Source of the DNA: Clostridiales bacterium
Lineage (GTDB): Bacteria > Bacillota > Clostridia > Oscillospirales > Oscillospiraceae
Assembly: GCA_021201475.1 (NCBI GenBank)
Contig: JAJQEV010000049.1
Span: 1-35,887 of the forward strand
Reading direction: 5' to 3'
Length of the DNA: 35,887 nt
Shown here: positions 17,688 to 35,201 of the stretch, piece by piece
How positions within the stretch are numbered: the first letter of the stretch is position 1
How the letters are laid out: the number at the start of each line of letters is the position of its first letter
Translations under genes and position numbers: made by a program
The notes under the pieces: generated by a model
Database searches by the model: none
Told to the model about the DNA's origin: nothing
The model's input: the letters and a program-made list of their open reading frames with translations, nothing else

Positions 17688-17718
17688 GAAAATCAGCTCC
17701 TTTCACATTTCATTGCAC

Positions 17719-17813: not shown

Positions 17814-17877
17814 CGTGACGCTGTTTCTGTGACGCATGGGGGTGTATCAATAGCGTCACAAGCGTCACAGCGTCACA
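17814..17877 (+). repeat. 64-bp iteron-like direct repeat, copy 2
   Basis: The second copy of the sequence at 17008-17071, with the same GCGTCACA triplet and inverted octamers. Five differences were counted, four of them clustered near bases 10-14. The two copies enclose the toxin-antitoxin pair, with about 740 bp between them. Confidence 0.85.
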
Positions 17878-17902
17878 TGATGATAAGAAACTCAGGGATG
17901 AC

Positions 17903-17934
17903 CCCGGTATGGCAGCCTTCCATACCGGGCTTTT
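17903..17934 (+). terminator. Hairpin with short T-run before the recombinase unit
   Basis: A perfect 10-bp stem, CCCGGTATGG/CCATACCGGG, with a 7-nt loop, followed by CTTTTC. It would insulate the recombinase unit from the replication side. The T-run is short, so efficiency is uncertain. Confidence 0.65.
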
Positions 17935-17959
17935 CATGTTCAGGAATGGAGGTATGCTT

Positions 17960-18154: not shown

Positions 18155-18159
18155 CGGAT

Positions 18160-19836
18160 ATGTGGAACGAACCAGAACGGAGCAAGGCGAGCGCCCTTCC
18201 CTCCGGCACCGTCAGGGCGGCGATCTACTGCCGCCTCTCGAAAGACGATGAATTGCAGGGTGAGAGCGCCAGCATTGCCAATCAGCGCAGTATGCTCCAG
18301 GACTACTGCGAAAAGCAGGGATGGGAGGTCATAGCAGTCTATCAGGACGACGGGTTCACGGGTCTGAACATGGATCGCCCTGACTTTCAGAAAATGTTGA
18401 AAGCAGCCGAGGCCAGGATGATAAACCTGATAGTAACGAAAGACCTTAGTCGGTTAAGTCGTAATTATCTGGAAGTTGGCAAGATGATCGAGGAATTCTT
18501 TCCCCGGCACGGCGTCCGCTATATCGCTTTGAATGACGGCATTGATACCATGCTGGATAACAACGATATAGCGCCCTTCAAAAATATCCTCAATGAATTT
18601 TATTCCAGGGACATTTCCAAGAAGGTACACGCCTCTTACTACCTCAAAGCAACGAGGGGTGATTTCACCGGCTGTGTGGCTCCCTTCGGATATGTCAAAG
18701 ACCCGGAGTGCAAAAACCACCTGCTCATTGATGAGGAGACAGCACCCATTGTCCGGCGGATTTTCGATTATGCTCTGGAAGGACGTGGCCCCGGTTATAT
18801 CCGCCGCCGTCTGGAGATGGATGAGATACCCTGCCCCACATGGTGGAACCGGCAGCGAGGCATCCGCAGTCACTTCACCAAATGGGAGCTGGCCGACCCG
18901 GATAACGGAAGGTTTCTCTGGGATGATTCAGTCCTGAAGGATATGCTGATCAATCCCGTTTATATGGGCTGTATGGCGTCCCAGAAGAAGAACTACCGCT
19001 TCAAGATCGGGACGATTGGCGAGAAGAAGCCGGAGGACTGGATCATCGTTGAGGGAACCCATGAAGCCATCGTCACCGCCGAGGAATTCGAGATCGTCCA
19101 GAAGAAGCTCAAGGCCAGACAGCGGCCAAGGGATGACGGCAATTTCAGTCTGTTCGCCGGTCTTATCAAGTGCGGCGAGTGCGGAAAGGCGCTGACCATC
19201 CGTAAGACCAACGCCAAGCAGCCAAAGGACATCTACGCCTGCTGGACGTACAACCGATACGGCAAGCACCACTGCACCCAGCACCGAATCGAGTACGACG
19301 TTCTCTATGACATGGTTCTCTCCAAAATTCAGGAGTGCGCCGCTGCTGCCCTGGCTGACGATGAGGAAGTGCTTGACCAACTGAGCGAATCCTTCCGGTC
19401 TGAGCAGGAAGGCCAGCTACAGGCCATCTCCCGACAAGTAGCCAAGGACACCGAACGGCTTTCCTTGCTGGACAGAATGGTTGTGAAGCTCTATGAGGAC
19501 ATGATCGCCGGGCGCATCTCTGAGGCCAACTTCAATCTGATGATGAAGAAAGCCCAGGATGAACAGGTGGAACTGACCGACAGGGTGAAGCACAACAAGG
19601 AACTGTTGACCGACCAGGACAGGCTGACCCGTGACAACCAGCAATGGCTGGACATGATCCGGGAGTACGCCGACATTCAGGAGCTTGACGCCGAGACCCT
19701 GCAAAAGCTCATCCGGGAGATTACCGTCCATGAGGACATCGACGAGGACGGAACCCGGAATATCACCGCAGAAATTCACTTCAACCTCAAACCCTTACCG
19801 GAGCCGATGGGCGGCTCCGAACCTACAACTGAATAA
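18160..19836 (+). CDS. Large serine recombinase (element integrase)
   Basis: A 558-residue site-specific recombinase that probably integrates and excises the element. The N-terminal resolvase domain has the nucleophile S27 in YCRLSKDD, then 'SIANQRSML', 'DDGFTGLNMDRPDFQKML', and 'TKDLSRLSRNYLEVG'. The recombinase domain ('GYVKDPE', 'IVRRIFDYALEGRGPGYIRRRL') and a zinc ribbon (CGECGKAL, then C and H-H-C downstream) precede a coiled-coil (about 410-500). Length and order are normal. ATG 18160 is preferred, 18145 is possible; neither has a strong ribosome site. The gene lies about 170 bp from a truncated Maff2 gene, so this is the element's right end. Confidence 0.94.
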   Translation: MWNEPERSKASALPSGTVRAAIYCRLSKDDELQGESASIANQRSMLQDYCEKQGWEVIAVYQDDGFTGLNMDRPDFQKMLKAAEARMINLIVTKDLSRLSRNYLEVGKMIEEFFPRHGVRYIALNDGIDTMLDNNDIAPFKNILNEFYSRDISKKVHASYYLKATRGDFTGCVAPFGYVKDPECKNHLLIDEETAPIVRRIFDYALEGRGPGYIRRRLEMDEIPCPTWWNRQRGIRSHFTKWELADPDNGRFLWDDSVLKDMLINPVYMGCMASQKKNYRFKIGTIGEKKPEDWIIVEGTHEAIVTAEEFEIVQKKLKARQRPRDDGNFSLFAGLIKCGECGKALTIRKTNAKQPKDIYACWTYNRYGKHHCTQHRIEYDVLYDMVLSKIQECAAAALADDEEVLDQLSESFRSEQEGQLQAISRQVAKDTERLSLLDRMVVKLYEDMIAGRISEANFNLMMKKAQDEQVELTDRVKHNKELLTDQDRLTRDNQQWLDMIREYADIQELDAETLQKLIREITVHEDIDEDGTRNITAEIHFNLKPLPEPMGGSEPTTE

Positions 19837-19917
19837 GACGCACACGAACAGGCCGGAGAGTAGAAGGACTGGAGTGGTGCCGAAAAGCACACCGCCGCCT
19901 GCCATTTGCTGATGTTA

Positions 19918-20013
19918 CACCTAATTAGGTATGAACCCCGATTTTTCGGAAAAACCGAAAAACCTTGAAAAATCAAGGAAAATTCGAGGTCACTTCCACC
20001 TAAACGGGTATGA
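19918..20013 (+). other. Putative attachment site region (right end of the element)
   Basis: Two 17-bp direct repeats, CACCTAATTAGGTATGA (19918-19934) and CACCTAAACGGGTATGA (19997-20013), match at 14 positions. The first contains a perfect 12-bp palindrome, ACCTAATTAGGT (19919-19930). The second runs into the surviving Maff2 coding sequence. The layout is as expected for attR of the adjacent recombinase, but the crossover point is not proven. Confidence 0.55.
19942..19978. terminator. Two adjacent hairpins, possible bidirectional terminator
   Basis: TTTTTCGG-aaaaa-CCGAAAAA (19942-19962) followed at once by CCTTGA-aaaa-TCAAGG (19963-19978). The first has T/A runs on both sides, so it could end transcripts from either direction. 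They lie between the recombinase and the element end; they may also be part of the attachment site. Confidence 0.5.
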
Positions 20014-20090
20014 CACAGCTCATGGCGGGCGGCGGTGTCGCCCTGATCGGTACGACTCTGGTTCCGCTTCTCTCTGGCCTGTTTGGTTGA
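20010..20090 (+). pseudogene. 3' fragment of a Maff2-family gene
   Basis: From ATG 20010 the frame reads MTQLMAGGGVALIGTTLVPL followed by LSGLFG and a stop. This is the C-terminal membrane segment of Maff2 proteins (about 70 residues, pilin/VirB2-like position at the start of Firmicutes conjugation modules), where 'KQLMAGGG...LVPLLSGLF' is the conserved ending. The first two thirds are missing and replaced by the element end at about 20,007. The downstream order, VirB6-like then PrgI, agrees with the usual Maff2 neighbourhood. I conclude that the serine-recombinase element inserted into this gene; the 5' fragment should lie beyond the left edge of the window. Confidence 0.78.
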
Positions 20091-20109
20091 GCCGCGGAGG
20101 TAATATCCT

Positions 20110-20976
20110 TTGAACAGCATACTCGAACAGATCACTGACTGGATAAAGGAAATGCTGGTCAGTGCGGTCATGAATAATCTGTCGGGGATGTTTGATTCGG
20201 TCAACCAGCAGGTTGGGGATGTTGCGACACAGGTGGGGACGACCCCGGCGAACTTCTCGCCGGGGGTGTTCTCCATGATACAGTCTGTGTCCGAGTCAGT
20301 CATCGTCCCGATTGCGGGCATTTTCCTCACGATTATCGCCTGCTACGAGCTTATTCAGATGATTATCGACCACAACAATCTCGCCAATTTTGAAACCTGG
20401 ATTTTCTTCAAATGGGTTTTCAAGACCTTCGTCGCCGTGATGCTGATTACCAACTGCTTCAATATTACGATGGCAGTCTTTGATGTCGCGCAGAGTGTAG
20501 TCAGTTCCAGCGGAAGCCTGATTACGACAAGCACCGCTGTCAGTGACTCCATGCTGACATCTCTGGAAGATACGGTGTCCGCTATGGAACTTGGGCCGCT
20601 GTTGGGGCTTTATATGCAGACTCTCGTCATCCAGTTCACCATGTCCGCCCTGTCGGTTGTCATTTTCGTGATCGTCTACGGACGCATGGTGGAAATCTAT
20701 CTGATGACAAGCCTTGCCCCGATCCCCTTTGCCACCTTCGGCAACCGGGAACAGAGCCAGATCGGCCAGAATTACCTGCGCTCCCTGATTGCACTGGGCT
20801 TTCAGGGTTTCCTGATTTTGGTCTGTGTGGGCATCTATGCGGTGCTGATCCAGTCCGTTTCCATTTCGAGTGATATTATTTCGTCCCTGTGGGGAATTGT
20901 CGGCTATACCGTGCTTCTGGTGTTTACCCTGTTCAAGACAGGAAGCCTCGCTAAAAGCGTAATGAACGCGCACTGA
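20110..20976 (+). CDS. VirB6/TrbL-like conjugation membrane protein
   Basis: A 288-residue polytopic inner-membrane protein of a type IV secretion system, probably part of the channel. About five to six hydrophobic segments are visible (around 55-80, 95-120, 165-200, 205-225, 235-265 and 265-280), with a family-typical 'YGRMVEIYLMTSLAPIPFATFGN' loop. The start is TTG 20110 behind GGAGG (20096-20100). It follows the Maff2 remnant by 19 bp and precedes PrgI, the standard order in Firmicutes elements. The gene is intact, but its neighbours are broken, so the transfer machinery cannot work from this locus. Confidence 0.9.
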   Translation: MNSILEQITDWIKEMLVSAVMNNLSGMFDSVNQQVGDVATQVGTTPANFSPGVFSMIQSVSESVIVPIAGIFLTIIACYELIQMIIDHNNLANFETWIFFKWVFKTFVAVMLITNCFNITMAVFDVAQSVVSSSGSLITTSTAVSDSMLTSLEDTVSAMELGPLLGLYMQTLVIQFTMSALSVVIFVIVYGRMVEIYLMTSLAPIPFATFGNREQSQIGQNYLRSLIALGFQGFLILVCVGIYAVLIQSVSISSDIISSLWGIVGYTVLLVFTLFKTGSLAKSVMNAH

Positions 20977-20994
20977 CAGAAAGGAGGAAAAATT

Positions 20995-22398
20995 CTGGCT
21001 GCTTATGTATCTGTACCCCGCGACCTGACGCGGGTGAAAAGTAAAATACTGTTCAATCTGACCAAACGGCAGCTTGTATGTTTCGGGGCGGCGGTGCTCA
21101 TCGGAGTGCCGTCGTTTTTCGGTATCAAAAGCCTGGGCAATACAAGCCTGGCCACGATGTGCATGATTGTCATCATCGACTACACTGCTTTTACCATCGT
21201 TGCCAATATGTCGCGGTTCAGTATGCAAGTCCCGACAGATGATCAGATGCTGCAAATGCTGGAGATCAGCGGATATACCGGTGAAGAAATGCGGCAGTAT
21301 GTCCGAGCCGGCATGCCAAGGAAAGCATCCTGCATTTCCGCGACGCATCTTGTGCCGTCAGTCTGCCTGCTGCCACGAGTGCTGGCGGATGCCATGATGG
21401 ATAAAAGTGAATGGCAGGGTTATAAAAAGGGGAAGAAAAAGAAGAATTACACGCCAACGCCCAATCTGTCCATGCAGAAATTGGAGAGCCTTGTCGGGTA
21501 TATGGAGCAAAACGATCTGCTGTATCTCGATGTTCTGGACGGAGAAGCATACACCGAGTTTGTCTGCAATCATGCACGATTCATGTGCAGATTGTCGTGT
21601 ATTCGCAAAGAGATGAAAAGTGTGTCCGATGCGATTGAACGGCGTCAGCGTGATTATTCAAAAGAAGCCATGCGCGAAATGGATCGCCTGATAAGGAAAA
21701 AGCCAAAAGGAAAAACGCAAAGCGGAAAGTCTTTCAACATGAGAGATGCAAAGGCCGCCCCTCTCGCTCCGTTAGCCGTTTCATCTTCCCCTGTACCGGA
21801 TCTGCCATCTTTCCAGGAAATTTCTGCCATGATGCAGCCGCAGGCAAATTATATTTCACTAAACCGGGATACAGACTTAAAAGATTTTTCCGATATTCCA
21901 CCTGAAATAAATGCTATCCTGAAACAGATGGAACAGTTTGATGACGAAGCAGGTGCCATGCAGGAAGAATGTTGGACGATCTCAGACCGGCTGACGGAAG
22001 AAAATTCCTCAGAACGAGCTGAGTATATCTCCGATGAATTCATGCCGGGAATCGCTATGGGAATCTTCCAGGCCATCCGCGAAGGCGATGAAATTTATAA
22101 GATTAAAGTGGGCCGCATTGTCATGGAAGATCTGATGTCCATGTGCGACATGCCGCTTCACACTGGTTTCGATACAGAACTCGGTGATGAGGATGAGTGG
22201 GACTACGGATTTGTCGAATGCAACGGCAGGCTGGCGCTCCCTGTCGTCAAAGACGGGGACTGTCTCTCATTCCCATTGGATGAAAATGTAGAAGCATTTC
22301 GATACACGATTCCTGTGTCTGCCATGATTTCCCGTTATGCAGACCGGCCATTTGAAGCGCCACTCTACATCCGGAAAAAGCCTGATCAGAAAATTTAA
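20995..22398 (+). pseudogene. PrgI 5' part fused to unrelated coding sequence
   Basis: AGGAGG (20982-20987) lies 7 nt before CTG 20995, from which the frame reads (M)AAYVSVPRDLTRVKSK and continues 'FNLTKRQLVCFGAAV', a clear PrgI-family beginning with two membrane segments. After 'ATMCMIVI' (about 21,170) the PrgI match ends abruptly and a different sequence follows for about 400 residues. This has a basic segment 'GYKKGKKKKN', an acidic C-terminal half and no domain I recognise. A PrgI protein is normally about 110-140 residues, so this is a chimera made by insertion or deletion. The downstream part may be a gene lacking its own start. VirB4 and other transfer genes are absent. Confidence 0.65.
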
Positions 22399-23083
22399 AG
22401 AATACGGCTGCTCAGACCGGAAGGCAAGAGACTATGCCGTCATCGTTGCGACACTGAATCAGGTCGATCTGCTGGAAGAAAAAGACTTCCGATTTGCAAC
22501 CGAGTACCCGGAACCGAAAGAAAAGACTGAGAATAAATCTCCGGAAAAAATAACAGATGCCAGACTCCAGCAGGAGATTTCCGCACGCGAAGATGCGGAA
22601 CGCGCACTGCGGCAGGCACAGAAAGAAAATCAGATCAGCCGTCATGAAATCAGCACACTGCAGAGGGAAATCGAGCGCCTGCAAAATCGTCTTGCGGAAA
22701 AAGAACAGGCTGCAGAACGCCTGGAGTCGAAAGAAGGAACCGAAGATGCTGAAAGAGATGTCATACAGTACCCGTACCGCACAAAGTTCCGTGTGGTTCT
22801 CTATGGTGGGGTTGAAGTATTCCACCGGGAGTTTCTGAAACTTCTGCCGGATGTGAGGGTCGTGGAGACCTTAGCGCACATCGACATCAACCCGATCCGG
22901 AATGCCGACATCGTATTCTTGCAGATCAACAAAACAGATCACAGCGGATACTGGACGGTCTGCGATGCCTGCAAAAGCAGCGGCGTACCGTATATCCATC
23001 TGAATTATGCCAGCGCGAAACGGTGCGCCGGAGTGATGGTGGAGGAAATACAGAAAATCGAAGGAGGAAAAAATTATGGCTAA
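22337..23083 (+). CDS. Coiled-coil protein with DUF2325-like C-terminal domain
   Basis: A 248-residue frame. A short basic N-terminus leads to 'FKEYGCSDRKARDYAVIVATLNQVDLL', a long coiled-coil (about 75-140, 'DAERALRQAQKENQISRHEI' type), and a C-terminal alpha/beta domain (about 155-240) with 'RVVLYGGVEVFHREF', 'NADIVFLQI' and 'HSGYWTVCDACKSSGVPYIHLN', which resembles DUF2325. The start is uncertain: ATG 22337 overlaps the preceding frame by 62 nt and has no ribosome site, so the two frames may be pieces of one frameshifted gene. Function unknown; DUF2325 proteins are common near conjugative element integrases. Confidence 0.65.
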   Translation: MQTGHLKRHSTSGKSLIRKFKEYGCSDRKARDYAVIVATLNQVDLLEEKDFRFATEYPEPKEKTENKSPEKITDARLQQEISAREDAERALRQAQKENQISRHEISTLQREIERLQNRLAEKEQAAERLESKEGTEDAERDVIQYPYRTKFRVVLYGGVEVFHREFLKLLPDVRVVETLAHIDINPIRNADIVFLQINKTDHSGYWTVCDACKSSGVPYIHLNYASAKRCAGVMVEEIQKIEGGKNYG

Positions 23084-23509: not shown

Positions 23510-23538
23510 TTGAAAAAATAAGATATTAATGCTATACT
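23510..23538 (+). promoter_or_regulatory. Promoter of the DruA/Dpt-like operon
   Basis: -35 TTGAAA (23510-23515), a 17-bp spacer, TGC-extended -10 TATACT (23533-23538). It is located 42 bp before the small HTH gene and is the only strong promoter seen for the cassette. Confidence 0.75.
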
Positions 23539-23579
23539 AAAGCGATATTTGTGTTATATTATCAACAAGGAGATTTGAT

Positions 23580-23804
23580 ATGAGTTTTTCGGACGAAATA
23601 AAAATGGTACGTATGAAAGCATTTCTTACTCAAACAGCATTTGCTGAGGAAATCCATGTATCTTTTTCAACCGTCAACAGATGGGAGAATGGTAAAGGAA
23701 AGCCTAACCTTACAGCTATGAAGTCAATTAAGGACTTTTGCGAAAATCATGATATTCCGCATGAAAATTTGGAAGTTGAATGGTTTAATAGCCCATCTAA
23801 ATAA
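23580..23804 (+). CDS. Small XRE-family HTH regulator of the defence cassette
   Basis: A 74-residue DNA-binding protein with the helix-turn-helix in 'LTQTAFAEEIHVSFSTVNRWENGKGKPN' and a short C-terminal helix. AAGGAG (23567-23572) gives 7-nt spacing to ATG 23580. It is the first gene behind the cassette promoter, with only 38 bp to the DruA-like gene, so it is probably cotranscribed and probably an autorepressor controlling a costly or toxic system. It has no sensor domain. Its A+T-rich codon use fits the genes downstream and not the ClpX-like gene upstream. Confidence 0.85.
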   Translation: MSFSDEIKMVRMKAFLTQTAFAEEIHVSFSTVNRWENGKGKPNLTAMKSIKDFCENHDIPHENLEVEWFNSPSK

Positions 23805-23842
23805 AAGGTTATATTGATATTAAACAGTGAAAGGGTTAAACC

Positions 23843-25834
23843 ATGGAGCATGCTAGAGAAAGTGATGAACAAATTATTACCTCCGAGTCTTTCACTCCGG
23901 ACTTATCGGGAGAATACGCTGAACGATATAATGCCTTGATAAAGAAACTTGTTGGAGTTTTGCCAGCGAATCGTGTAAGCGCAATTAGGAAAGAAAAAGA
24001 TTCCATAACGGAGCAAGGGGAAAACATTGAACAACTCAAATATAAGGCAGCATTAAGCGTATTGATTGATTTGTCCCAGCAGGGATGGATTTTTAATATC
24101 GAAGAAGATCATCTCGTTCTTAAGATGGAAACAGACAATATCGACGATAAAAAAATGCTGCGCTACAGATTAAGCACTGAACGTAATGCACAGTTTAAAA
24201 CTGATAGTGTTTCAAATTTTATTCATCGAATGGAAAAGGATAAGAAATATCAGAATGAAACAGTATCCATTAAATCACTGATTGGTGATCCGAAGTTTCT
24301 TTTGCAAAAGATAAAAAATAATGAAAGGGTATGTGAACCTTATATTCAGCTTGTTTCGAATGACAGAGATGAATACACCGGATATAAGCTATCAGATATA
24401 TGGCGCTACTTTCGGTACACATGGTCAATCCCGTATAGGACCATGCCTGGCAGAAATTTATATTACATTGTAAGAGACAGATTACAGCCGCATCACCCCG
24501 TCATGGGAATTTTCGCCCTTGGTAATTCAGTGCTAAATCTTACAGTTCGCGATGATGATATAGGCTGGACAGTAGAAGCCATAAAGCAAAATATGGCGAG
24601 ACGAGTTAACACTAGCTATTGTGAGCAGACATTAAGTGAAACTGATGGGAAGACAATAAGGGTCAAGGTAAATAAGCCAACAGAAACTAAGGAAGAATTC
24701 GAGCAAAGGACATCTGAATACGCAGATAAAATCTATCCATTGCTGTTAAAAAACATAGCCAGTGCAATTAATGACCTGTATGTTAAGGATCTAGGATATC
24801 ATCGTCAAACCCGTTATCCTAAACAGGAACAGGTGGATCAACTGATCGCTATGGCTGCAGAATATGCACAGAAATCTATAAACAACAAAAATAATGAGGT
24901 TTCCCCTAATTGGGGGGATGAAGCACAGTCTAATTTGTTTAAGCGCAAAAGAGCATCTGAGTTGGCCAAACTCTTGTCTACAAGGATTACTTTTAATAAG
25001 GCTCAGGGGAATAATAATAAAGAAAAATTACAGTTTTTGCTTTCTAACGAAGAGGGGCGAAAGGCTATTAACACAGCACTGATAGCTAATCGAAAATGTA
25101 AAATAGGCTCTAACATGATGGACATTATTGTATGCGGTTCTATTCCTCCATACAACGAATTACTTGGAGGAAAGCTTATTAGTATGTTAGCATGCTCACC
25201 GACAGTGATTAGCGATTACACCAATCGTTACAGCAATCAGGTAAGTGAGATTGCCTCTCGTATGAAAGGCAAAGAAGTTATTCGAGACAGTCGACTTGTC
25301 TATTTGGGAACCACAAGTCTGTATGCTACCGGAAGTAGCCAATACAACCGTATCAAGGTTCCCATGAGCAACGGAGGTATTATAGAGTTTAGAAAGATGG
25401 GCGTAACCGAAGGATATGGTACAGTTTTCTTTTCAAAGGAAACAACCGATCTTTTTTCCAGAATTCTAGAACTGCAGGATGGCGGTAAAAGGATTAACCA
25501 TGTGTTTGGAGAAGGCACAAGTCCACGTTTTCGCATGATTAGCCGAGGATTGAGTACTATAGGAATCAAGGCTGATGCATTTCTGAGACACTATTCTCCA
25601 AGAATTGTGTATTCGATAAACCTAGCGAAAAATACAAATAATTTTTTGATGGGCTTTGATGATGATGTGGACTACGGTTTTGATATTAATGATGAAAATG
25701 ATATTGAACAGAAAACGCAGGAAATCATTGAGTTTTGGTATACGAGGTGGTTGGAGAAGAGACTCACAACTGTAGATATTGATGAACGGCTTAATGCTTT
25801 TAAGCTTTCGGATATTTTACTGGGGAATATTTAG
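23843..25834 (+). CDS. DUF4338 protein related to Druantia DruA
   Basis: A 663-residue protein. Core motifs of DUF4338 are clear: 'LSDIWRYFRYTW' (183-194), 'PYRTMPGR' (197-204), 'HHPVMGIFALGNSV' (217-230) and 'RDDDIGW' (236-242); then 'LLGGKLISMLACSP' (440-453), 'SEIASRMKG' (468-476) and 'LGTTSLYATGSSQYNR' (488-503). DruA of type I Druantia belongs to this family and has a similar order. The molecular activity of the family is not established to my knowledge. The N-terminal 170 residues look cassette-specific. Starting 38 bp after the HTH gene and followed after 12 bp by a DptF-like ATPase, it is part of a new-looking operon. No DruE helicase is present in the window. Confidence 0.86.
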   Translation: MEHARESDEQIITSESFTPDLSGEYAERYNALIKKLVGVLPANRVSAIRKEKDSITEQGENIEQLKYKAALSVLIDLSQQGWIFNIEEDHLVLKMETDNIDDKKMLRYRLSTERNAQFKTDSVSNFIHRMEKDKKYQNETVSIKSLIGDPKFLLQKIKNNERVCEPYIQLVSNDRDEYTGYKLSDIWRYFRYTWSIPYRTMPGRNLYYIVRDRLQPHHPVMGIFALGNSVLNLTVRDDDIGWTVEAIKQNMARRVNTSYCEQTLSETDGKTIRVKVNKPTETKEEFEQRTSEYADKIYPLLLKNIASAINDLYVKDLGYHRQTRYPKQEQVDQLIAMAAEYAQKSINNKNNEVSPNWGDEAQSNLFKRKRASELAKLLSTRITFNKAQGNNNKEKLQFLLSNEEGRKAINTALIANRKCKIGSNMMDIIVCGSIPPYNELLGGKLISMLACSPTVISDYTNRYSNQVSEIASRMKGKEVIRDSRLVYLGTTSLYATGSSQYNRIKVPMSNGGIIEFRKMGVTEGYGTVFFSKETTDLFSRILELQDGGKRINHVFGEGTSPRFRMISRGLSTIGIKADAFLRHYSPRIVYSINLAKNTNNFLMGFDDDVDYGFDINDENDIEQKTQEIIEFWYTRWLEKRLTTVDIDERLNAFKLSDILLGNI

Positions 25835-25846
25835 GGAGGAATAGCA

Positions 25847-27385
25847 ATGGCGAAAATTGATTTTGTAAAGAAGCTGTATAACGGGAAAAATTGTTATTCA
25901 GATCATATGGATGAATCTGAGTTGCAACTACTTCATATTGCATCCAAAGCAGAAAGCATAATCATCGATATGCTTTCGCATAATCGTATTGTTTTTCTTA
26001 CCGGAAATCCTGGTGATGGAAAGACCTTCATCATCAAGGCAATTGCGTCGATCATAGATATAAGCGAGTTGTATATTCAAACCGACTTAAACAATGTCAA
26101 AGATTACTCGACGATAGTTAGTGATATCAGTACACTATATAAAGAAAACAAGGGCGCGATTGTCGCTGTAAATGAATATCCTTTTATGCAGCTTTGTAAA
26201 CAAATCAAAACTACATCTCGAGAAATTTACGACGATATTCAGAAAGCTAAAAAAGGAACTATTGTTTATGGTGTATCCCAGCCTCTGACAAGTCGAATTG
26301 CGGTAGTTGACTTAAATGAGAGAAATTTGCTCGGTGCAGATTATGACCTGCTATCAGGATTGATCGATAAATTTATAGATCTGCTTAATGACGATGCCAC
26401 ATATAATTCAGCATTGAAATATAATCTTATAGCGTTGTCAGATAAGTTTGTTAAAGGACAATTGCTGAGTTTATTCCAACTTGCAGCTGCGGAATGTGAG
26501 CACTTTGCAATTCGTGATATTCTGGGGGCGTTTGCCTTTATTTTTACAGCATGTACGATGGAGGACTTTGAAAACTGCAGATATTATTCAGCAGTTTTTG
26601 AGGGAACAAACGAGTTGCTCGCATCTGTTCAACAGTTCGATCCAGTATATCTTTCCTGCCCGTCATTAGATGAGGCACTTTGGAACGGAAAAATTGTGGA
26701 TAACTGGATTTTCGGAACTCCAGATAAGTATCCAAATGAGGTAGAGGATGTAGAGGAGGCCTTGAACCTGTTCTGTAATTTAAAACGTCGATATTTTTTT
26801 GAAAACAAGGATGGCAAGGAGTTGCTTAATCTTCAACCGGATGAAATTACAAAATGTACAGAACTTTTTGTAACATTTGAGGCGCAGAAAAAGAAAACAA
26901 AAGAGACATTGATTAGAGCTATTAACAAGCTATTTCTCCCATCCTCTGATGATAAGAAGCAGTTGCATATTTGGACAACACATCGATATGATATGAGCCA
27001 GGATGCTGCAGTTGCTGTTTCTAGTAAATCTGTTGACGCAAGTGAATTGGAAATTTTGATGCCTCGGCCTGCAGATTGGCTGAAGGGGCTGGAATATATA
27101 CCAGACCATATTATTATGAAGCCAAAAGCATTGGACACTCCAGTATTAACCTTAAATGTTGATTTTTTGAGAACCCTAAATGCTGTGGAGGATGGATATC
27201 CAATTGGACTTTTGGCTCCACAGTATGAACAGGCGGCGGCAATGTTTTTACAGCAATTGGATGATAAAGGTATTTCAGAGCCTAACGATGATGGAGAAAT
27301 CATTATAGCGAGCAGAACACGAAGCTACAAAAAAGTAATTCATATTCAGGATGGAAAATATGACTTTGAAGAGGAGGAAAACTAA
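25847..27385 (+). CDS. DptF-like P-loop ATPase
   Basis: A 512-residue NTPase. Walker A is GNPGDGKT at residues 53-60. A Walker B-like strand ends in acid, 'AIVAVNEYP' (104-112), and 'SRIAVVDLNERNLL' (149-162) follows. This pattern, GNxGDGK(S/T) then a 'NE' strand and 'VVDLNxRxL', is what I associate with DptF, the ATPase of the Dnd phosphorothioate-dependent restriction group. That assignment rests on motif and gene order, not on an alignment. GGGAGG lies directly before ATG 25847, 12 bp after the DruA-like stop. It probably powers assembly or DNA engagement of the nuclease complex. A different P-loop defence ATPase remains possible. Confidence 0.72.
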   Translation: MAKIDFVKKLYNGKNCYSDHMDESELQLLHIASKAESIIIDMLSHNRIVFLTGNPGDGKTFIIKAIASIIDISELYIQTDLNNVKDYSTIVSDISTLYKENKGAIVAVNEYPFMQLCKQIKTTSREIYDDIQKAKKGTIVYGVSQPLTSRIAVVDLNERNLLGADYDLLSGLIDKFIDLLNDDATYNSALKYNLIALSDKFVKGQLLSLFQLAAAECEHFAIRDILGAFAFIFTACTMEDFENCRYYSAVFEGTNELLASVQQFDPVYLSCPSLDEALWNGKIVDNWIFGTPDKYPNEVEDVEEALNLFCNLKRRYFFENKDGKELLNLQPDEITKCTELFVTFEAQKKKTKETLIRAINKLFLPSSDDKKQLHIWTTHRYDMSQDAAVAVSSKSVDASELEILMPRPADWLKGLEYIPDHIIMKPKALDTPVLTLNVDFLRTLNAVEDGYPIGLLAPQYEQAAAMFLQQLDDKGISEPNDDGEIIIASRTRSYKKVIHIQDGKYDFEEEEN

Positions 27386-28863
27386 TGGCTAACGATACAT
27401 TAAAAAGTATTGGCGAATCAGTATGTACAGACTATTTAGGCTTTGCTCCGACTTCTAATGGTACAAAGCCACCACATATTGCAAATGGTTTGTTCCGAGC
27501 ATGTCTTGGGGAAACCTGCCGGACAACAGATGTGCATGAATGGCTTATTTGTGAAGGTAACAAGGACGCGATTTCCTCGGACGAAATTATTTCTTCATAT
27601 CATCAAATCCTCGAAAGAGGACAAATGGAGAAAGTTTCCAATATTAAGGATCTGAGGTTCCTTCTATATGAAATCTTCAACCAAGATAATACAACGTATC
27701 CTTCATATGATTTCTCGGTTATGACTATTTCATCACACTGGATGGTAAAGAAAAGAGTCAGTTCAGAGGCCAATATAGGAGATTTTATTTTTGAAATTCT
27801 GTCTAAAAAAATTGACGGAAAGAGATCTCCAGCCATTGAATTGTTGCAGGCTGCATTGTCGAATGATACAGATGATATGACAAAACTTGTTAAGCCGATT
27901 ATCGCCTTTCCGTCAGAAAAAGAAAAAAGAGAAGTTTCCGGGGTGGAATTCCCTGACAATAGTGAAATCAGATGGGATTCGTGTAAGAAGTCCATACGCC
28001 GTGGCTTTGATCAACTTTCCAGAAATCTCGTCTTAATTGAAGAAAATAAGAACAGTTTGCTAGTTCTACGAAGAATGGTTAATTATGCTGTCTTTGCTTC
28101 GTTACTATATCTTATACACGGTAATTCAGCAGTATTTGACGGTCAACGTATCCCTATTGTAATTGATGCAGGAGGGGAATTGGATTCTATAAAGAAAGCA
28201 AGCGAGCAGTCATTTACAGCGGCGAAGAAGTCAGTAGAGGACTACTATGTCAATGCAATTTATAATATTATTGATGCTGAAATTCCCCATGATACGGTGA
28301 CGTCCTGTAAAAAATGGATTAACGAGATGGTTTTTAATTCTGCCGATAAGGAAGAAAATGTCAAAAATGCGATCACAAGTTATTACGATAGCTTTTGCGC
28401 AGAAGGGGATGCGCCTAAGTATGCATTGGCAAAAGCTTTGCAGATCGCCCTTTACACATTTGAATACAAAAATAATTCGCCATCTGATTTCTGTCGAGTG
28501 CTTGGCGTAAGGGCTGGCTTAGTTGGGCCAAAAGGAAATCGTGCAAAAATCAAGAGATATCTTGTTAATAGCTTTACGTTGGAAACCATTACTCTTAGCG
28601 CTGTTTCAGAAGATGACTTGGCAGATGGCATTGAACTTAAGGATTTGAGCGATAAACTTGTTCAAGATTATTGCATTTTGATTGGTGGAGATTCGGATAC
28701 AGAATATTCCATTTTGGAAACTGCAAATATTGCTCAGTCTACGCCTGGCGACTTGCGTGGCGACTTGAGTTTGAATTCCCAGCAACTGGCTAATACATAT
28801 ATTTCATTGGGACTCGGAAAACGATATGCTGATGGTGTTACACTGATTGGATGGAGGTTGTAA
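27385..28863 (+). CDS. Protein in the DptG position of the cassette
   Basis: A 492-residue, mostly helical soluble protein with no visible catalytic motif. Notable segments are 'LVLRRMVNYAVFASLLYLIHG' near the middle, 'GVRAGLVGPKGNRAKIKRYL' and a C-terminal 'SLGLGKRYADGVTLIGW'. Its start overlaps the ATPase stop as TAATG. Position between a DptF-like ATPase and a DptH-like translocase, and the size, suggest a DptG-type structural component that links the two; sequence similarity to DptG itself is not obvious to me. The last codons overlap the ribosome site (GGAGG 28853-28857) of the next gene, so expression is coupled. Confidence 0.7.
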   Translation: MANDTLKSIGESVCTDYLGFAPTSNGTKPPHIANGLFRACLGETCRTTDVHEWLICEGNKDAISSDEIISSYHQILERGQMEKVSNIKDLRFLLYEIFNQDNTTYPSYDFSVMTISSHWMVKKRVSSEANIGDFIFEILSKKIDGKRSPAIELLQAALSNDTDDMTKLVKPIIAFPSEKEKREVSGVEFPDNSEIRWDSCKKSIRRGFDQLSRNLVLIEENKNSLLVLRRMVNYAVFASLLYLIHGNSAVFDGQRIPIVIDAGGELDSIKKASEQSFTAAKKSVEDYYVNAIYNIIDAEIPHDTVTSCKKWINEMVFNSADKEENVKNAITSYYDSFCAEGDAPKYALAKALQIALYTFEYKNNSPSDFCRVLGVRAGLVGPKGNRAKIKRYLVNSFTLETITLSAVSEDDLADGIELKDLSDKLVQDYCILIGGDSDTEYSILETANIAQSTPGDLRGDLSLNSQQLANTYISLGLGKRYADGVTLIGWRL

Positions 28864-28865
28864 AG

Positions 28866-31800
28866 ATGAGCAGAAAACTTTTAACGGATGTTGTTGTCAA
28901 CCTTGTGAATAGATATGCTACCTCCCAGGAATATGGTGTTTCACTTGTAAATATTCCTGACTTTAATTATGCGGACTTTGTCTCAAGACTATATGGCGAG
29001 AAAAGCATAGAAGTGTTTTTTCTCGGCTTTTCTGCTGAAATAGAGCGTGATTTGACGGATAAATTACCGACAATGGAAAATGTTAAATATAGCTTCAGCG
29101 TTGAGGATGCGGAAACATCCAGAAATACAGGCAATGAAAGCATTTTTCGCGTGCTAATTATTAAGAGGGCGGAATTGGAGAAAATCTCATCTTTGCGGTG
29201 GTTCCCCGAAATAAGCTTGGAAAAAGTGTATACTCAAAGCTGTGATTATGTCAAGAAAGAACTGAAGGATACTAATTCTGTGATTGAGGCGCTTATTCAG
29301 GCCTTGCGTTGTAAGCCGGTGAGAAGCCTGCTTAGTTTTGAACGGGTTCTTGATTATCTCGAACTCTTGCTTTCTGCATCCGCCGATATGCTTCCAGATA
29401 TGGTTCGTAAAAATTACTATAAATTGGGACTTCTTGCTGATAAGAACATTGTTAGTAAGAACCCAAACAAAAATGATTTCGTTTCAAGAATAAAGAGAAA
29501 CCATGTAATCATCGAACGAATCAGTAACCTTGAACAAGCGGAACGTCAGAGTATTACAAATTATTATGCAAAAACATCAAATAACAAGGACATACCAAGA
29601 TTAATCCTAAGTTATTACAAAACAAAAAACATTGAACTCCTTAAGAAGATGGATATTGAGGATGTTGAGAGTTGTCTAAAGGCTGTTAAGGAAAAACCGA
29701 ATGGAGAAAATCCACCAAAAGCGAGAAAAACTCCAATTGTCCAGCCAACAGCCTTAGCCGCACAACTTGTTTTTGAAGGTAATACTGACAGAATTGATGA
29801 TATTCTCGACCATATTAAACAGGACGTTGATGAGCGATCTAACACTAAGAAAAGTGAGCGCGTTGAAATCGATTATGATAGCTCCAAGATTCAGATTAAA
29901 GCGGAACCGTTAACTGAAAAGGTTGCGGATCAGTTAACGACGGATGATGATATGGGAGGAATAATTCATGCTGATGTGGATTCTCCTGATGAAGCAATTA
30001 AGGAACTGGAAAAGTACGAATTTGTTCCGTTTAAGAAAAGCTATCTTGATGATATCAGAAATGATTTAAAGAGAATTTCTGCATTGCTTGCAGATGGCGA
30101 GCAGATATCCGAATATCTGGATAAGTTCCTACAGGCGAGAGATGCTGTTGCTCCTTATAGAAAAAGATTACAAGATGCACCTATGTTGCAGGTGCTGGCT
30201 AGATACACAGAATTTGAAGAATATATACGTGCTTATGAACGGCTACTTGTAGTAATCAATGAGGACTTCCCGAAAATATGGGGAGTTGCGGCTTCAAATG
30301 CGAAGGCAATTATTAATGCAGTAATGTCCTTGGACTATGTGTTTGTTGTAGGAGAAAGTAAACTGCATGCAATGCCAACACCTTTGCATCCGCTTTATCT
30401 GTGGAAATATGTAGAACTGGCAAGAGAAATACTTTCAGGCAGGGGTGTAAGCGAAATAGAGGAAGAATGCCTTTCTGATGATGATAAATCTTTTATTATT
30501 CGAAAAGCAGAGGATATTCCAGATCCGTTATCTGTAATGCTATTACCTGCTACAGTAACAGAACAGGTAGCAGCATTTTTGCCTTTGGCAGGACGAATTG
30601 GCCTTCTGCCAATTTATTCAAACGTATCTCAGGTCAATCAGAGTGAAAGCGGTATGGATACACTCAAACAGGCTATTGTCCGTTATATTTGCCTTTATCC
30701 ACATGCAGGTATGATGCTTCGCATGTGCTTTATTGACCCACCCTCCGTCGAAGTCATAGTTTCCATGCTTAAGGCATTGAATGCTGACAAGGAATTTAAT
30801 ATTAGTGGCATAGAAGTAACTATATTTAGAACCAAGGAGGTTCCTGGTAGTTGGATTGAAATTGATAATGACTCCCTGAATGAGGGTATGCTTGGTAAGT
30901 ATAAGGGTAGGCGGTCACTGAATTTTAACCTTAAGATTGTTAATAAGAGGCGTTCATATAATCAGATTCTTTCTGAAATATCGACGGAACAGCATTTGTT
31001 GGTTGTCTTTGATCCCAATGAGGTTAAGATTGAAACTGCTCAAAATAGTAGACAGATTCATATACATCCTTTATGTGTGCCGAAAATCTACAAATACAAT
31101 CCTATTAGTGAAGAGGTAGAAATTAGACCGGCAAGTGAAGGTGGAATATTTACTATATATTCCAGTATTATTGAAAAACTAAATGAGCATCCGTCTACAT
31201 TTAGCCATACAAGTACATTTTTTAGAACTCCTCTGAAGAGAGATACCTATGAAAGTTTGCTCAAAAAGTCCGATTGGCTTGTGATTCTTGATCAAAGTCT
31301 TAAAAGTTGGGACATATCTCTTAGAGCCGCGAGCGAAAAACTTTTCTATCGCGAAAACGATTACCGTTCAGTTGGTATTTACTCGGCCAATTGCAATAAG
31401 TTTGTGCTTGGATATGACACGCTTGTAAAACAGTTGGGGAATTTTATACCGAAAGATTCTGGCATTAAGAGTGTTATTGAGTCGATTAGAAACATTAATG
31501 ATGATGGCCTTCTAAGCATTGTTTCTCATACATCCAATAAAATTTTCGATGAAAAGCACGGAAAAGGAAGTCTGGGGACAGCAATTGCAGCCATTCACTA
31601 TAAGAGAGAAAATCCAGACGCAATTCTTGTTGGGTTGGATACTCAACTAGCCCAAGAATGGCTTTCAGATCGCGAAGAGGGTGAATTACCAGACTTGGTT
31701 GCAATTAATCTTCATAATGATCGGACAGCAACGGTTGATATCGTTGAAGTAAAAACCTATGCAAATAATCCAAATGCCTTTGAAATTAAAAACAATAAGA

Positions 31801-33479
31801 TATTGGGGCATGCGGTTCAGCAGGTTACGGTCCTTGAAAGGCTGATTATAGAAATGTTCGGAGCCACTGAACGAATTACAACAGTTTCTAGAAGAGAAAT
31901 TCTTAGGGAGCAGGTATTTGAGTGTTTGTTCCATACTAATATCGAATCAGCAGATAAAATGCGTTGTTGTGATGACCTCAATGCTTTGTTTGCAGGTGAG
32001 TTTAAAGTCTCAGTAAAAAAGAATATCGCATTTGTTGATTTCAATGATTATGCAAGTTCAGTTGTTGTTTATGAAGGTGGTGAAGGCTTTGAGGGAAATC
32101 ATTATACTGTCACCACTATCGGAAGTAATGAGATTCAAAGTATTCTAGCTGATGCGGCTTACACAGGATCTATGACAGAAAATCCTGATCAAGATGTAAC
32201 GGAAACAGCCGCAGATGCATCAGCGACTTCAACGAATCCCACTGCTGAGCCAGCGACGATGACTCCGCCGGAACCAGATAATATGGCAGAAGTTGAAACA
32301 AGGGAGCGAAAGGAAATTGATGCTGAGGTGCTGGAAAATGGAACTAACTCGCAGAAATCCATTGAACCAGAACTAGTTGAAGTCGATCCAGAAGCACAAA
32401 AACGAATTGAGGAAAAGTGTGCTAAGTTAAATAAAGTCCTTAAGGATTATGGAATCCGTGCAGAAAGCATAGAAGTTGAGAAGATCCAAGAAGCCGCTCG
32501 TTTTACAAGATTTCCTGTAAAACTTAAATCTGGAGAAACGGTAAATAGCCTGAACAGGTACAAAAACGACATTGGCATTCAACTTGAAGCAAACGGTGAA
32601 ATACTCATTGAGCACATAAAAGGGACCAGTTATATTTCTGTTGATGTTCCATTTGCAGACTCCGGAAAATCCATTAGCTTAATGGAGCACCTTGATCTTT
32701 TGAATACAAGTAAAGGGCGTTTGGATGTAATTGCAGGTCAGACTCCAGATGGAAAATTTGAAATTTTGGATGTTGCGGGCGCACCGCATATGCTTATAGC
32801 TGGGACTACTGGTTCAGGTAAAACGATCTTTTTGCAGTCCATACTTGTTAGCTTGCTTTATCAATTTACTGCAGATGAAATGGAACTTTTGATTGTTGAC
32901 CCTAAACAGACAGACTTTATTTTCTTCGAAGGGCTTCCACATCTTTACGGCGGTAAAGTTATCATTGATGCAGAAGAAGCATTAGAAATGCTGCAAAAAA
33001 TCAATGCTGTAGACAAGGAAGAGCGTACTGCTGCGTTAAGAGCATGCCGTAGTAAGGATATTGACTCTTATAATCAGAAGAACTCGGATAAGAAGATGAA
33101 ACGTTTGGTTGTTGTAATTGATGAATATTCTGACTTGATTCAGGCTGCCGAATTGAAAGGAATCAGAAAAGATTTTGAAAATAATCTTCTTATGCTTTTG
33201 CAAAGAGTGCGAAACCTTGGTATTCATTTGATTATCGCAACACAGAGACCTTCAGCGCAGATAGTTACAGGTCAACTTAAAGCGGTTATTCCATTCAGAG
33301 TTTCCTTTAGGTTACCATCACATACGGATTCGCAGACTATTTTGGATATGTCAGGCGCAGAAAATCTATTGGGCAAAGGGGATATGCTAATGGTTACCGA
33401 ATCAGACACAAAACGTATGCAGGGATTGTTTGTGTCTGAGACAGAGCTTGAGAAATTTTTGGAAGCAAAGATAAAGTAA
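28866..33479 (+). CDS. DptH-like nuclease-translocase: PD-(D/E)XK motif plus FtsK/HerA motor
   Basis: A 1,537-residue effector. Residues 1 to about 880 are unrecognised, largely helical, perhaps for recognition. A PD-(D/E)XK nuclease core lies at about 900-1030: P942-D943 and E961-V-K963 with an intervening strand. An acidic, Ala/Thr/Pro-rich linker (about 1100-1175) joins it to an FtsK/HerA motor: Walker A GTTGSGKT with K1319, Walker B VVVIDEYSDL with D1419-E1420, then 'IATQRPS' and 'LLGKGDMLM'. ATG 28866 is chosen because GGAGG is 8 nt upstream; the in-frame ATG 28851 lies within the preceding gene. It likely pumps DNA and cuts it. The DptH assignment follows from architecture and gene order. 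Confidence 0.85.
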   Translation: MSRKLLTDVVVNLVNRYATSQEYGVSLVNIPDFNYADFVSRLYGEKSIEVFFLGFSAEIERDLTDKLPTMENVKYSFSVEDAETSRNTGNESIFRVLIIKRAELEKISSLRWFPEISLEKVYTQSCDYVKKELKDTNSVIEALIQALRCKPVRSLLSFERVLDYLELLLSASADMLPDMVRKNYYKLGLLADKNIVSKNPNKNDFVSRIKRNHVIIERISNLEQAERQSITNYYAKTSNNKDIPRLILSYYKTKNIELLKKMDIEDVESCLKAVKEKPNGENPPKARKTPIVQPTALAAQLVFEGNTDRIDDILDHIKQDVDERSNTKKSERVEIDYDSSKIQIKAEPLTEKVADQLTTDDDMGGIIHADVDSPDEAIKELEKYEFVPFKKSYLDDIRNDLKRISALLADGEQISEYLDKFLQARDAVAPYRKRLQDAPMLQVLARYTEFEEYIRAYERLLVVINEDFPKIWGVAASNAKAIINAVMSLDYVFVVGESKLHAMPTPLHPLYLWKYVELAREILSGRGVSEIEEECLSDDDKSFIIRKAEDIPDPLSVMLLPATVTEQVAAFLPLAGRIGLLPIYSNVSQVNQSESGMDTLKQAIVRYICLYPHAGMMLRMCFIDPPSVEVIVSMLKALNADKEFNISGIEVTIFRTKEVPGSWIEIDNDSLNEGMLGKYKGRRSLNFNLKIVNKRRSYNQILSEISTEQHLLVVFDPNEVKIETAQNSRQIHIHPLCVPKIYKYNPISEEVEIRPASEGGIFTIYSSIIEKLNEHPSTFSHTSTFFRTPLKRDTYESLLKKSDWLVILDQSLKSWDISLRAASEKLFYRENDYRSVGIYSANCNKFVLGYDTLVKQLGNFIPKDSGIKSVIESIRNINDDGLLSIVSHTSNKIFDEKHGKGSLGTAIAAIHYKRENPDAILVGLDTQLAQEWLSDREEGELPDLVAINLHNDRTATVDIVEVKTYANNPNAFEIKNNKILGHAVQQVTVLERLIIEMFGATERITTVSRREILREQVFECLFHTNIESADKMRCCDDLNALFAGEFKVSVKKNIAFVDFNDYASSVVVYEGGEGFEGNHYTVTTIGSNEIQSILADAAYTGSMTENPDQDVTETAADASATSTNPTAEPATMTPPEPDNMAEVETRERKEIDAEVLENGTNSQKSIEPELVEVDPEAQKRIEEKCAKLNKVLKDYGIRAESIEVEKIQEAARFTRFPVKLKSGETVNSLNRYKNDIGIQLEANGEILIEHIKGTSYISVDVPFADSGKSISLMEHLDLLNTSKGRLDVIAGQTPDGKFEILDVAGAPHMLIAGTTGSGKTIFLQSILVSLLYQFTADEMELLIVDPKQTDFIFFEGLPHLYGGKVIIDAEEALEMLQKINAVDKEERTAALRACRSKDIDSYNQKNSDKKMKRLVVVIDEYSDLIQAAELKGIRKDFENNLLMLLQRVRNLGIHLIIATQRPSAQIVTGQLKAVIPFRVSFRLPSHTDSQTILDMSGAENLLGKGDMLMVTESDTKRMQGLFVSETELEKFLEAKIK

Positions 33480-33493
33480 GTGAGGTACATTTA

Positions 33494-33931
33494 ATGCAGA
33501 CAATTACTTCCGATGATTATAAAACCGGAATATTTATCAGAGAACTTAAGAATCGCTTTTTGTGTGAGGTCGAAATTGATTCGGAATTAATTGTCTGCTA
33601 TGTGCCTTCCTCGTGTCATTTGAGTAATTTTTTGCAGTTTTACAAGAAAAAAGTGTTGCTCATGCCTACGACGACACCAAAATCAAGGACACAATATGCT
33701 TTATTTGCGGTTCCATATAAAAGGAACTATATTGTGTTGAATACTTCAATGGCAAATCGTGCAATAGAAGCAAATATTAGAAGAAGGCTCTTTTCTTATT
33801 TAGGCAAAAGAAATAATGTTATAAAAGAGCATTCTGTTTTTGGGTATAAATGTGATCTTTATATTAAAGACACTGATACTATAGTAGAGGTTTCAAGTGT
33901 ATTTTTTATAATGCTGAACGTGCTCAGGTGA
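33494..33931 (+). pseudogene. Truncated SfsA-like nuclease gene
   Basis: The first 130 residues match the SfsA family in layout: 'GIFIRELKNRFLCEVEIDSEL', 'VCYVPSSCHLSNFL', 'RTQYALFAVPY' and 'HSVFGYKCDLYIKDTDTIVEV'. SfsA proteins (about 230 residues) have a PD-(D/E)XK-like fold with an E-V-K-S motif at the end of that block. Here the motif reads E-V-S-S and the similarity stops, replaced by a few frameshifted residues and a stop. Immediately after, in another frame, a tyrosine integrase begins mid-protein. So the 3' part was lost at the right edge of the cassette. The gap to the DptH-like gene is 14 bp, so it was probably the fifth gene of the operon. Confidence 0.7.
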
Positions 33932-34722
33932 TTGACTATAATCCATCGGCCGGAATTCCCGCAAAAGGCGGTATTCCGGGGAAAGGAAAAACAGTTCTGA
34001 CTGATGAACAGGTAAAAACATTACTGGACGCGATCAGAGGGAAACGTCCATATGTATTTATAATGATAGGACTGTACACGGGGCTGCGCCGTGAGGAGAT
34101 ACTGGCACTCCAGTGGGATTGTGTATTTCTGGATAATAAAGTTCCGTACCTTTCTGTAAGGAGAGCCTGGCGCGAAGAGCACAACAGACCAGTGATTTCC
34201 ACTGTTTTAAAGACTCCTGCCGCACGGAGAGATATTCCCATCCCAGAGTGTCTGGTTGACTGCTTACGTAAAGCAAAGGAAGAATCTGTTTCGGAATATG
34301 TAATTTCCAACAGCGAAGGGCAGCCGTTATCTGATGCGCAGTTTCAGAGGTTATGGAAATATGTGACGGTTCGATCTCAGAAGAAAAGGACTTATTATAA
34401 ATATGTCAACGGAGAAAGCATCAGATACACGGTTGATCCAACTGTACTTGGCTTTCAGAAAAACAATCACAATATTGTGTACAGTATTGATTTCGATGTG
34501 ACGCCACATCTGCTTCGTCACACATATATAACAAATCTACTCTACGCCGGGGTTGATCCAAAGACGGTGCAGTATCTGGCGGGGCATGAGAACAGCAAGA
34601 CTACAATGGATATCTATGCGAAAGTCAAATACAACAAGCCGGAAGAACTTCTGGATGTAGTAAATGGAGCCTTTAATCAAGAGTCATTGGAGAATGATAC
34701 CGGAAAGGAAGAAGCGGTATGA
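33901..34722 (+). pseudogene. Tyrosine integrase lacking its N-terminal domains
   Basis: The open frame begins in the middle of a typical core-binding domain end, 'FYNAERAQVIDYNP', then has a complete catalytic domain: 'TGLRREEILALQW' (first Arg), 'LLRHTYITNLL' (H-x-x-R), 'LAGHENSKTTMDIY' (His and the Tyr nucleophile). About 120-150 N-terminal residues (arm-type and core-binding domains) expected for an integrase of about 390 residues are missing. A GTG at 33928 could start a 264-residue product, but no ribosome site is seen and the joining point with the SfsA-like fragment lies at about 33,900. I infer loss during acquisition of the defence cassette. It overlaps the next gene by 4 nt. Confidence 0.8.
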
Positions 34723-35201
34723 CTGTAGGACAGAGAATAAAGTATTTCCGGAAAATGCGGGGTATGACACAGACACAGTTGGCGGTTGCTGCCGGTATGT
34801 CAGAGAAAAACGCGGATGTAAGGATTACTCAGTACGAAAGCGAAGGCAGGCATCCGAAGAAGCCTCTCCGGGAGTCCCTTGCAAGAGCACTTCATGTCAG
34901 CCCGGCTGCCATCTCGCCGCCTGATATGGACAGCGCCGCCGGGGTCATACAGATACTTTTTATGATGGAGGATCTGTATGGAATACGAATTGATAATATT
35001 CAGTCGGAACTCTGCCTGTTAATTGATCCGGCGCGAATGGACAGCGAGTTATCCGGAATGGTGATGGAATGGCTGAGAATGAGTCAGAGAATGGAAAATG
35101 GAGAGCTTACGAAAGAGGAGTACGATATGTGGAGATATAATGCTCCTAATAATACCGAAGGATCTCAGCCCCTGACTGACAGATCTGAAGAAGAAACATA
35201 A
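34719..35201 (+). CDS. XRE-family HTH protein behind the integrase
   Basis: A 160-residue protein. An N-terminal Cro/C1-type helix-turn-helix (about 1-65, 'GQRIKYFRKMRGMTQTQLAVAAGMSEK' then 'ITQYESEGRHPKKPLRESLARAL') is followed by a helical, acidic C-terminal domain. It overlaps the integrase stop as ATGA, so the two formed one unit. It is likely a regulator of the former integrative element. A terminator follows 8 bp after the stop. It matches the higher G+C of the integrase, not of the defence cassette, so the two belong to the older element. Confidence 0.87.
   Translation: MTVGQRIKYFRKMRGMTQTQLAVAAGMSEKNADVRITQYESEGRHPKKPLRESLARALHVSPAAISPPDMDSAAGVIQILFMMEDLYGIRIDNIQSELCLLIDPARMDSELSGMVMEWLRMSQRMENGELTKEEYDMWRYNAPNNTEGSQPLTDRSEEET

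Follow-up and report, generated by a model that had tools for sequence, protein, structure and literature searches.

DruA-FGH, a candidate defence cassette that couples a Druantia protein to relatives of the Ssp/Dnd restriction module

Do a Druantia protein and a DNA restriction module that are encoded side by side form one defence system? The question is raised by an operon in contig JAJQEV010000049.1 of a Clostridiales bacterium (GenBank assembly GCA_021201475.1; the whole stretch of 35,887 nucleotides is referred to as the window). Four open reading frames (ORFs) at 23843-33479 encode DruA and three proteins called F, G and H, and a truncated SfsA-like ORF follows; all are on the forward strand, as are the motifs and upstream features located below. 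The sequence-only reading that drew attention to the locus (the original prediction) had described four large genes in a single tight operon, with a DUF4338 protein of the DruA family, and ORFs, Pfam and PADLOC confirm both points. Our answer, to which we give a probability of roughly 0.5, is that DruA-FGH would act as a self-contained restriction system against invaders, with DruA as a fixed subunit that aims and restrains FGH. The cassette probably serves defence against viruses or plasmids.

F (25847-27385, 512 amino acids (aa)) is an SspF/DndF-like P-loop NTPase. It matches PADLOC SspF at E 1.4e-7, and all 29 members of its family match SspF, with 11 of the 29 also matching DndF. Walker A lies at 26003-26026, and the sequence VAVNE occupies the Walker B position within 26159-26182. 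K59 of Walker A, numbered correctly in the original prediction, is invariant in 29 sequences together with D80, A107 and N109, giving A-x-N at the Walker B position. We infer that D80 sits at the end of strand 2; the DndF signature, in the part of Rakesh et al. (PMC10853773) drawn on here, is likewise an Asn in Walker B and an acidic residue after strand 2. At loci L166 and L168-L171 the SspF-like proteins are 1331-1524 aa long and carry ~800-1000 additional residues at the N-terminus. G (27385-28863, 492 aa) matches nothing on its own in family scans, and 17 of 29 aligned family members match SspG. Sequence searches of the PDB returned short P-loop or chance matches only for F and weak, chance-level matches only for G.

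H (28851-33479, 1542 aa) is an SspH/DndH-like protein with a PD-(D/E)xK motif and a C-terminal FtsK motor. It matches PADLOC SspH at E 2.1e-59, a match limited to the FtsK domain, and Pfam FtsK_SpoIIIE at E 2.7e-31 along with an FtsK alpha domain; within its family, 21 of 27 members match SspH and five match DndH. The nuclease motif (D948, E966 and K968, at 31692-31754) is conserved in the alignment of 27 H sequences, all of which have D948, with conservation of 90% or more at E966 and K968, and the FtsK Walker A lies at 32802-32825. Residues are numbered in the longest frame, in which the earlier D943, K963 and K1319 become D948, K968 and K1324, because the earlier reading evidently used a start at the sixth codon, for which its numbering holds. 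A genome screen with the SspH family was discarded, as FtsK-like proteins matched in 389 of 398 genomes.

Because FtsK-like proteins match SspH as well as H does, H was stripped of its motor before profile-profile comparison (hhalign). The reference was the FGH sets of nine other Bacillota loci, two of which were scanned for neighbours and were both Ssp-linked. F aligned at 99.9% probability over 457 columns, G at 97.6% over 217 and motor-less H at 97.0% over 458, and seven cross-family controls gave 0.1-0.3%. H thus carries, by its motif, its FtsK match and the motor-less alignment, the restriction endonuclease (REase) domain, HerA/FtsK motor and shared N-terminal part found in SspFGH and DndFGH. 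F, G and H are, on this sequence evidence, relatives of the Ssp/Dnd restriction module. The predicted kinship of the ATPase, the G-position protein and the nuclease/FtsK motor to Dpt-type proteins is therefore borne out by family matches and hhalign, and the choice of Dpt/Dnd as the closest label is not, since SspFGH matches are commoner and stronger than DndFGH matches.

DruA (23843-25834, 663 aa) matches Pfam DruA at E 4.7e-37 and PADLOC DruA1 with 453 bits over residues 16-651. An insert splits the Pfam domain, profile positions 5-137 aligning at 24212-24625 and positions 121-297 at 25085-25654, 460 bases apart. The window encodes a long form, given that two plasmid DruAs with other partners measure 409 and 413 aa. 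We know of no established role for DruA in Druantia. Profile comparison gave no support for a Mom-like DruA (a profile of 10 Mom sequences gave no match, at 0.9-1.1% probability; five other families gave 0.1-0.3%), and no DruA was found in phage records.

Profile and neighbourhood searches bear out the expectation that the four genes are conserved together elsewhere, and the set recurs across phyla and in archaea. A DruA-profile scan of 84,980 species genomes kept 79 loci from 110 relatives, with partner genes called by iterated profiles. F is present in 57 of these loci, F, G and H in 50, DruE in 16, and F and DruE together in 6; the fractions are not unbiased, because the scan was seeded with FGH-linked DruAs. 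Seven loci have F without a complete FGH: five at contig ends (L024, L029, L035, L044 and L064), one with no G called (L054), and one in which our own profile missed an H that PADLOC calls DndH (L048). F-positive loci occur in Bacillota, Spirochaetota, Nitrospirota, Chloroflexota, Bacteroidota, Pseudomonadota, Actinomycetota, Cyanobacteriota and Halobacteria, although single phylum placements may be wrong because many of the genomes are metagenome-assembled.

Among 398 Bacillota genomes, strong F matches (513-600 bits) were found in four, the window's included, and DruA adjoins F in all four; the three besides the window are not all independent of the larger scan. Nine weaker F loci in the same genomes (40-105 bits) have no DruA in the 5.6-17 kb examined, and of 148 near relatives, again counting the window, two carry F. 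On plasmids, tblastn with F gave seven records, five haloarchaeal and two from Hymenobacter. The order DruA-F-G-H holds in all five haloarchaeal records, with G and H in pieces in one (L006). In Hymenobacter canadensis (L004) DruA is fused to F, two paired transposase genes separate G from H, and H itself is split in two; the start of the second Hymenobacter record cuts into DruA. Viral contigs were set aside as a source of F after two pattern matches that proved not to be relatives.

The four genes are tightly linked. Median gaps, window included, are 11 bp between DruA and F (n=33), 2 bp between F and G (n=48) and -4 bp between G and H (n=51), and DruA and F share one ORF in 24 of the 79 loci. 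Distance matrices of DruA, F, G and H from 48 loci correlate at r 0.96-0.98, values as high being reached in 0 of 999 permutations. We clustered neighbouring ORFs of at least 100 aa from 66 loci by BLAST; apart from SfsA and the pre-labelled DruE, DruD and DruX, no cluster occurs in more than six. A further conserved partner gene was accordingly rejected, and the DruA-F-G-H set looks complete. As both gene set and order recur, the operon appears to be more than a chance arrangement. Two DruA copies stand in one gene cluster around F-G-H-SfsA at L033 / L162.

Could genes elsewhere in the genome complete a known system? Profile searches of the window's draft genome found no match to DndC, DndD, SspB or SspD and no real DruE, just a 17.6-bit helicase match, so that, as predicted, no completing gene is present among those searched (DndC, DndD, SspB, SspD and DruE1). 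PADLOC found no match to DruB, DruC or DruD among the five proteins of the operon region, a search confined to the locus. We extended the genome search to 49 genomes, the window's own and those of 48 of the 57 F-positive loci. DndC exceeds its cut-off in three and gives some match at E 0.001 in 14; SspB is present in seven and SspD in 10 (both at E 1e-10), with SspD above 200 bits in two; 39 of the 49 have neither DndC over its cut-off nor SspB. DruE1 is full length (>1500 bits) in five, and four more have weaker DruE-like matches of 125-465 bits.

The claim that DruE is absent thus stands for the window's genome and fails for some relatives, in which DruE adjoins the operon. A divergent operon of DruX, a DruD-like gene and DruE adjoins DruA on plasmids L007, L009 and L010 and at genome loci L037, L040 and L042. 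DruE lies beyond H at haloarchaeal loci L008 and L038, and none is seen at haloarchaeal loci L006 and L055. The DruE copy of L011, on the same plasmid as L007, scores 1566 bits across its whole length, and in Neobacillus (L087) DruC-DruD-DruE-DruA-F-G-H-SfsA follow one another directly. Among the 79 loci, DruA also occurs with DruE and without FGH. On the haloarchaeal plasmids L009 and L010, H is followed by genes for a protein of 368 aa and a DUF262 protein.

How new is the combination? In the text of Rakesh et al. 2024 (PMC10853773) that we draw on, DndFGH components are reported from 1798 taxa and all eight dnd genes from 316, and DndFGH can stand alone, without modification genes; the earlier premise that DndFGH acts with Dnd modification is outdated. 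The same text lists, among variable N-terminal fusions of DndF, a GNAT domain annotated as DUF4338 and calls such fusions likely co-effectors, so the link between DruA and F is not wholly undescribed. 'Druantia' and 'DruA' have 0 occurrences in its main text. Of the suggestion that the system was undescribed, the Druantia link therefore survives, and the claim gives way where DUF4338-DndF fusions and standalone DndFGH had already been noted. No description of a DruA-FGH operon was found in the open-licence PMC literature, a scope outside which fall subscription journals, non-PMC preprints and supplements.

Three known systems come closest. SspABCD-SspFGH (PMC8092258) has homologous F, G and H in the same order and a nuclease-motor effector; the window's genome differs in having DruA and no SspB or SspD that we could find, and, conversely, no DruA lies in the stretch examined around the Ssp-linked Bacillota copies L167 (SspB-C-A-FGH) and L169 (SspC-D-FGH). 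DndFGH/DptFGH shares the F signature, the REase and HerA/FtsK domains of H and, at least in the fusions mentioned above, DUF4338, whereas the window's FGH is closer to Ssp and its DruA is whole, as well as often a separate gene in relatives. Druantia type I (DruA-E) is represented by DruA, which falls in the PADLOC DruA1 family, but the window's genome lacks DruE, the operon proteins do not match DruB, DruC or DruD, and the effector is FGH. In the passages of Bell et al. (PMC12458937) consulted, the nuclease domain of type I DruE is predicted to be inactivated; FGH would supply an active nuclease.

These relationships suggest how the cassette might work. F, G and H would form a complex of the SspFGH/DndFGH type, in which F may act as a switch that binds nucleotides and G as an adaptor that binds DNA, and in which H would thread DNA via its FtsK motor and cut it via its PD-(D/E)xK domain. 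Given the repeated DruA-F fusions, we propose that DruA docks on F as a fixed fourth member of the complex. SspFGH damages DNA without phosphorothioate (PT), is toxic without PT marks and has shown antiphage activity (Wang et al. 2021, PMC8092258, in the portions cited), so a replacement for the mark would be needed. DruA could fill the role that PT marks have in SspABCD-SspFGH by determining the DNA that the complex acts on, and would in this way aim it as well as restrain it. Complex formation, DNA cleavage and defence are all put forward as predictions. So is DruA's role in aiming the complex, the least certain of the four: it builds on genetic linkage and homology, and our confidence in DruA's exact role is lower than that given above for the statement as a whole.

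Several observations weigh against DruA-FGH as a self-contained system. The PADLOC match of H to SspH is non-specific, ordinary FtsK-like proteins reaching 189-197 bits against 202, and when H was compared with an SspH sequence against sequence, the motor alone aligned. Neither F nor DruE is present at 12 of the 79 DruA loci (DruA is at a contig end in four of these), the DruA domain occurs in 47 of the 398 Bacillota genomes (E 1e-8) with a strong F in only four, and most DruA-domain proteins are probably not FGH-linked. Host phylogeny may explain part of the apparent co-inheritance of the four genes. Of the 49 genomes, 10 contain DndC over its cut-off or SspB, counted regardless of position relative to DruA, and with these and the weak DndC matches in 14 of 49, PT marks are possible in some of them. 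A PDB sequence search gave DruA no solved-structure relative, returning weak, chance-level matches only. Finally, the cited text of Rakesh et al. (PMC10853773) takes the DUF4338 domain as a GNAT co-effector and not a sensor.

On that last view the operon would be a standalone DndFGH in which DruA is no more than a backup effector: should restriction fail, it would modify host proteins as a GNAT-like enzyme. We consider this unlikely: DndFGH is indeed often decoupled from modification in the account of Rakesh et al. (PMC10853773), but DruA is not a variable part in this lineage, where it accompanies all four strong F matches among the 398 Bacillota genomes. DruA is also conserved above F (33-39% against 23-25% identity to the window's proteins, in small alignments) and pairs with DruE in the absence of FGH. 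It is more doubtful still that DruA is a DNA-modifying acyltransferase like Mom of phage Mu, marking self DNA so that FGH cuts what is unmarked. Such a role would agree with the need of SspFGH for a self mark (PMC8092258) and with the GNAT assignment of DUF4338 (PMC10853773), as far as the cited parts of both go, and among the 66 loci no other conserved neighbour gene is able to modify DNA; yet the Mom profile does not match DruA, nor did we identify a cofactor motif in it.

The operon might instead belong to a Druantia I that is incomplete unless DruE is supplied from outside, FGH being an accessory. DruE does adjoin DruA-FGH in eight haloarchaeal cases, six of the eight with DruD-like and unknown genes, and the Neobacillus arrangement runs from DruC to H, but a full-length DruE1 in just 5 of 49 genomes, the weaker matches in four more and the 17.6-bit match in the window's genome make this improbable. 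Slightly less credible again is maintenance or transfer of a mobile element through FtsK-type DNA pumping, with no part in defence. That proposal fits the plasmid copies of the cassette and the window's own Mob, PrgI and integrase genes; the conserved restriction-type nuclease motif in H, the homology to SspFGH with its antiphage activity (PMC8092258, portions as above) and the finding that no mobility gene stands beside the operon in more than 6 of 66 loci argue against it.

The self-contained restriction system, which we favour, has a wider version that we advance more tentatively. DruA may be an exchangeable specificity hub that steers either of two unrelated effectors, the DruE helicase or FGH, and both in some haloarchaea and Neobacillus; DruA-FGH would then be a distinct, DruE-free type of bacterial and archaeal defence in which a protein replaces the PT mark. 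DruA looks exchangeable because DruE adjoins the operon in haloarchaea and Neobacillus and because its tree has five changes between FGH-linked and DruE-only DruAs, along with two between fused and separate DruA and F (86 rows, a quick method that left 16 open forks; loci with both partners scored as FGH, rows with neither omitted). The pattern points to a modular exchange of defence parts. DruA-FGH joins two defence families so far treated apart, and both DruA's part in Druantia and self/non-self discrimination by FGH without PT could be addressed on one small cassette whose partners are often a single polypeptide. It may also account for public 'DruA' annotations beside unnamed or FtsK-labelled proteins, for example in Hymenobacter and on haloarchaeal plasmids.

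In the window, 12 bp separate DruA and F, and F and G overlap by 1 bp. G and H overlap by 13 bp from the first ATG of H; a start at the sixth codon of H (28866, Met) would leave a gap of 2 bp, so the gaps given originally (12 bp, an overlap and 2 bp) are right for the shorter H and not for its longest frame. A promoter-like site upstream (TTGAAA-17-TATACT, with TG before the second hexamer, 23510..23538) is suggestive, being the sole one of four sites with 10/12 matches to have the TG; the scan as a whole found 30 sites against a mean of 34.4 in shuffled sequence, that is, no excess, and terminator sites were no commoner than in shuffles. A small ORF (23580..23804, 74 aa, HTH-like by eye) is a candidate local regulator. 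Of 85 upstream regions, that of L013 alone has a clear homologue (88%) in the corresponding position; L088 has one of lower similarity, on the opposite strand, and a conserved upstream regulator was rejected given this rarity. Compared with L013, the nearest relative, dN is 0.119 for DruA, 0.122 for F, 0.094 for G and 0.124 for H; this is the informative figure because dS is saturated (2.4 for G and 2.5 for H) or, for DruA and F, not computable.

The truncated SfsA-like gene (33494..33931) encodes 145 aa, against 223-243 aa in relatives, and matches ncbifam sfsA at 5e-11, below its cut-off, and Pfam SfsA_N with 28.8 bits (cut-off 25). Longer copies occur at 33 of the 79 DruA loci. DNA similarity to L013 stops near 33904, just ahead of the integrase ORF at 33928, which is short (264 aa); this is what a recombination junction at that point would look like. 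An SfsA-like gene follows a DruE-linked DruA without FGH in L039 and precedes DruA in L049, L050, L056 and L078, so the gene that it moves with may be DruA and not FGH.

The cassette seems to lie within a mobile defence island, as mobile-element genes flank it at 11462-23083 and 33928-35201 (MobA/MobL, AAA_25, a large serine recombinase, a PrgI-family protein, a tyrosine integrase and HTH). A type I restriction-modification locus occupies 1290-10106, with HsdM, a YhcG/DUF1016 nuclease, HsdS and HsdR. Elsewhere, L048, L066 and L083 have, directly upstream of DruA, a gene of 516-614 aa whose N-terminal part gives a MzaB-like match, and ORFs of similar size take that position at several other loci with DruE or a lone DruA.

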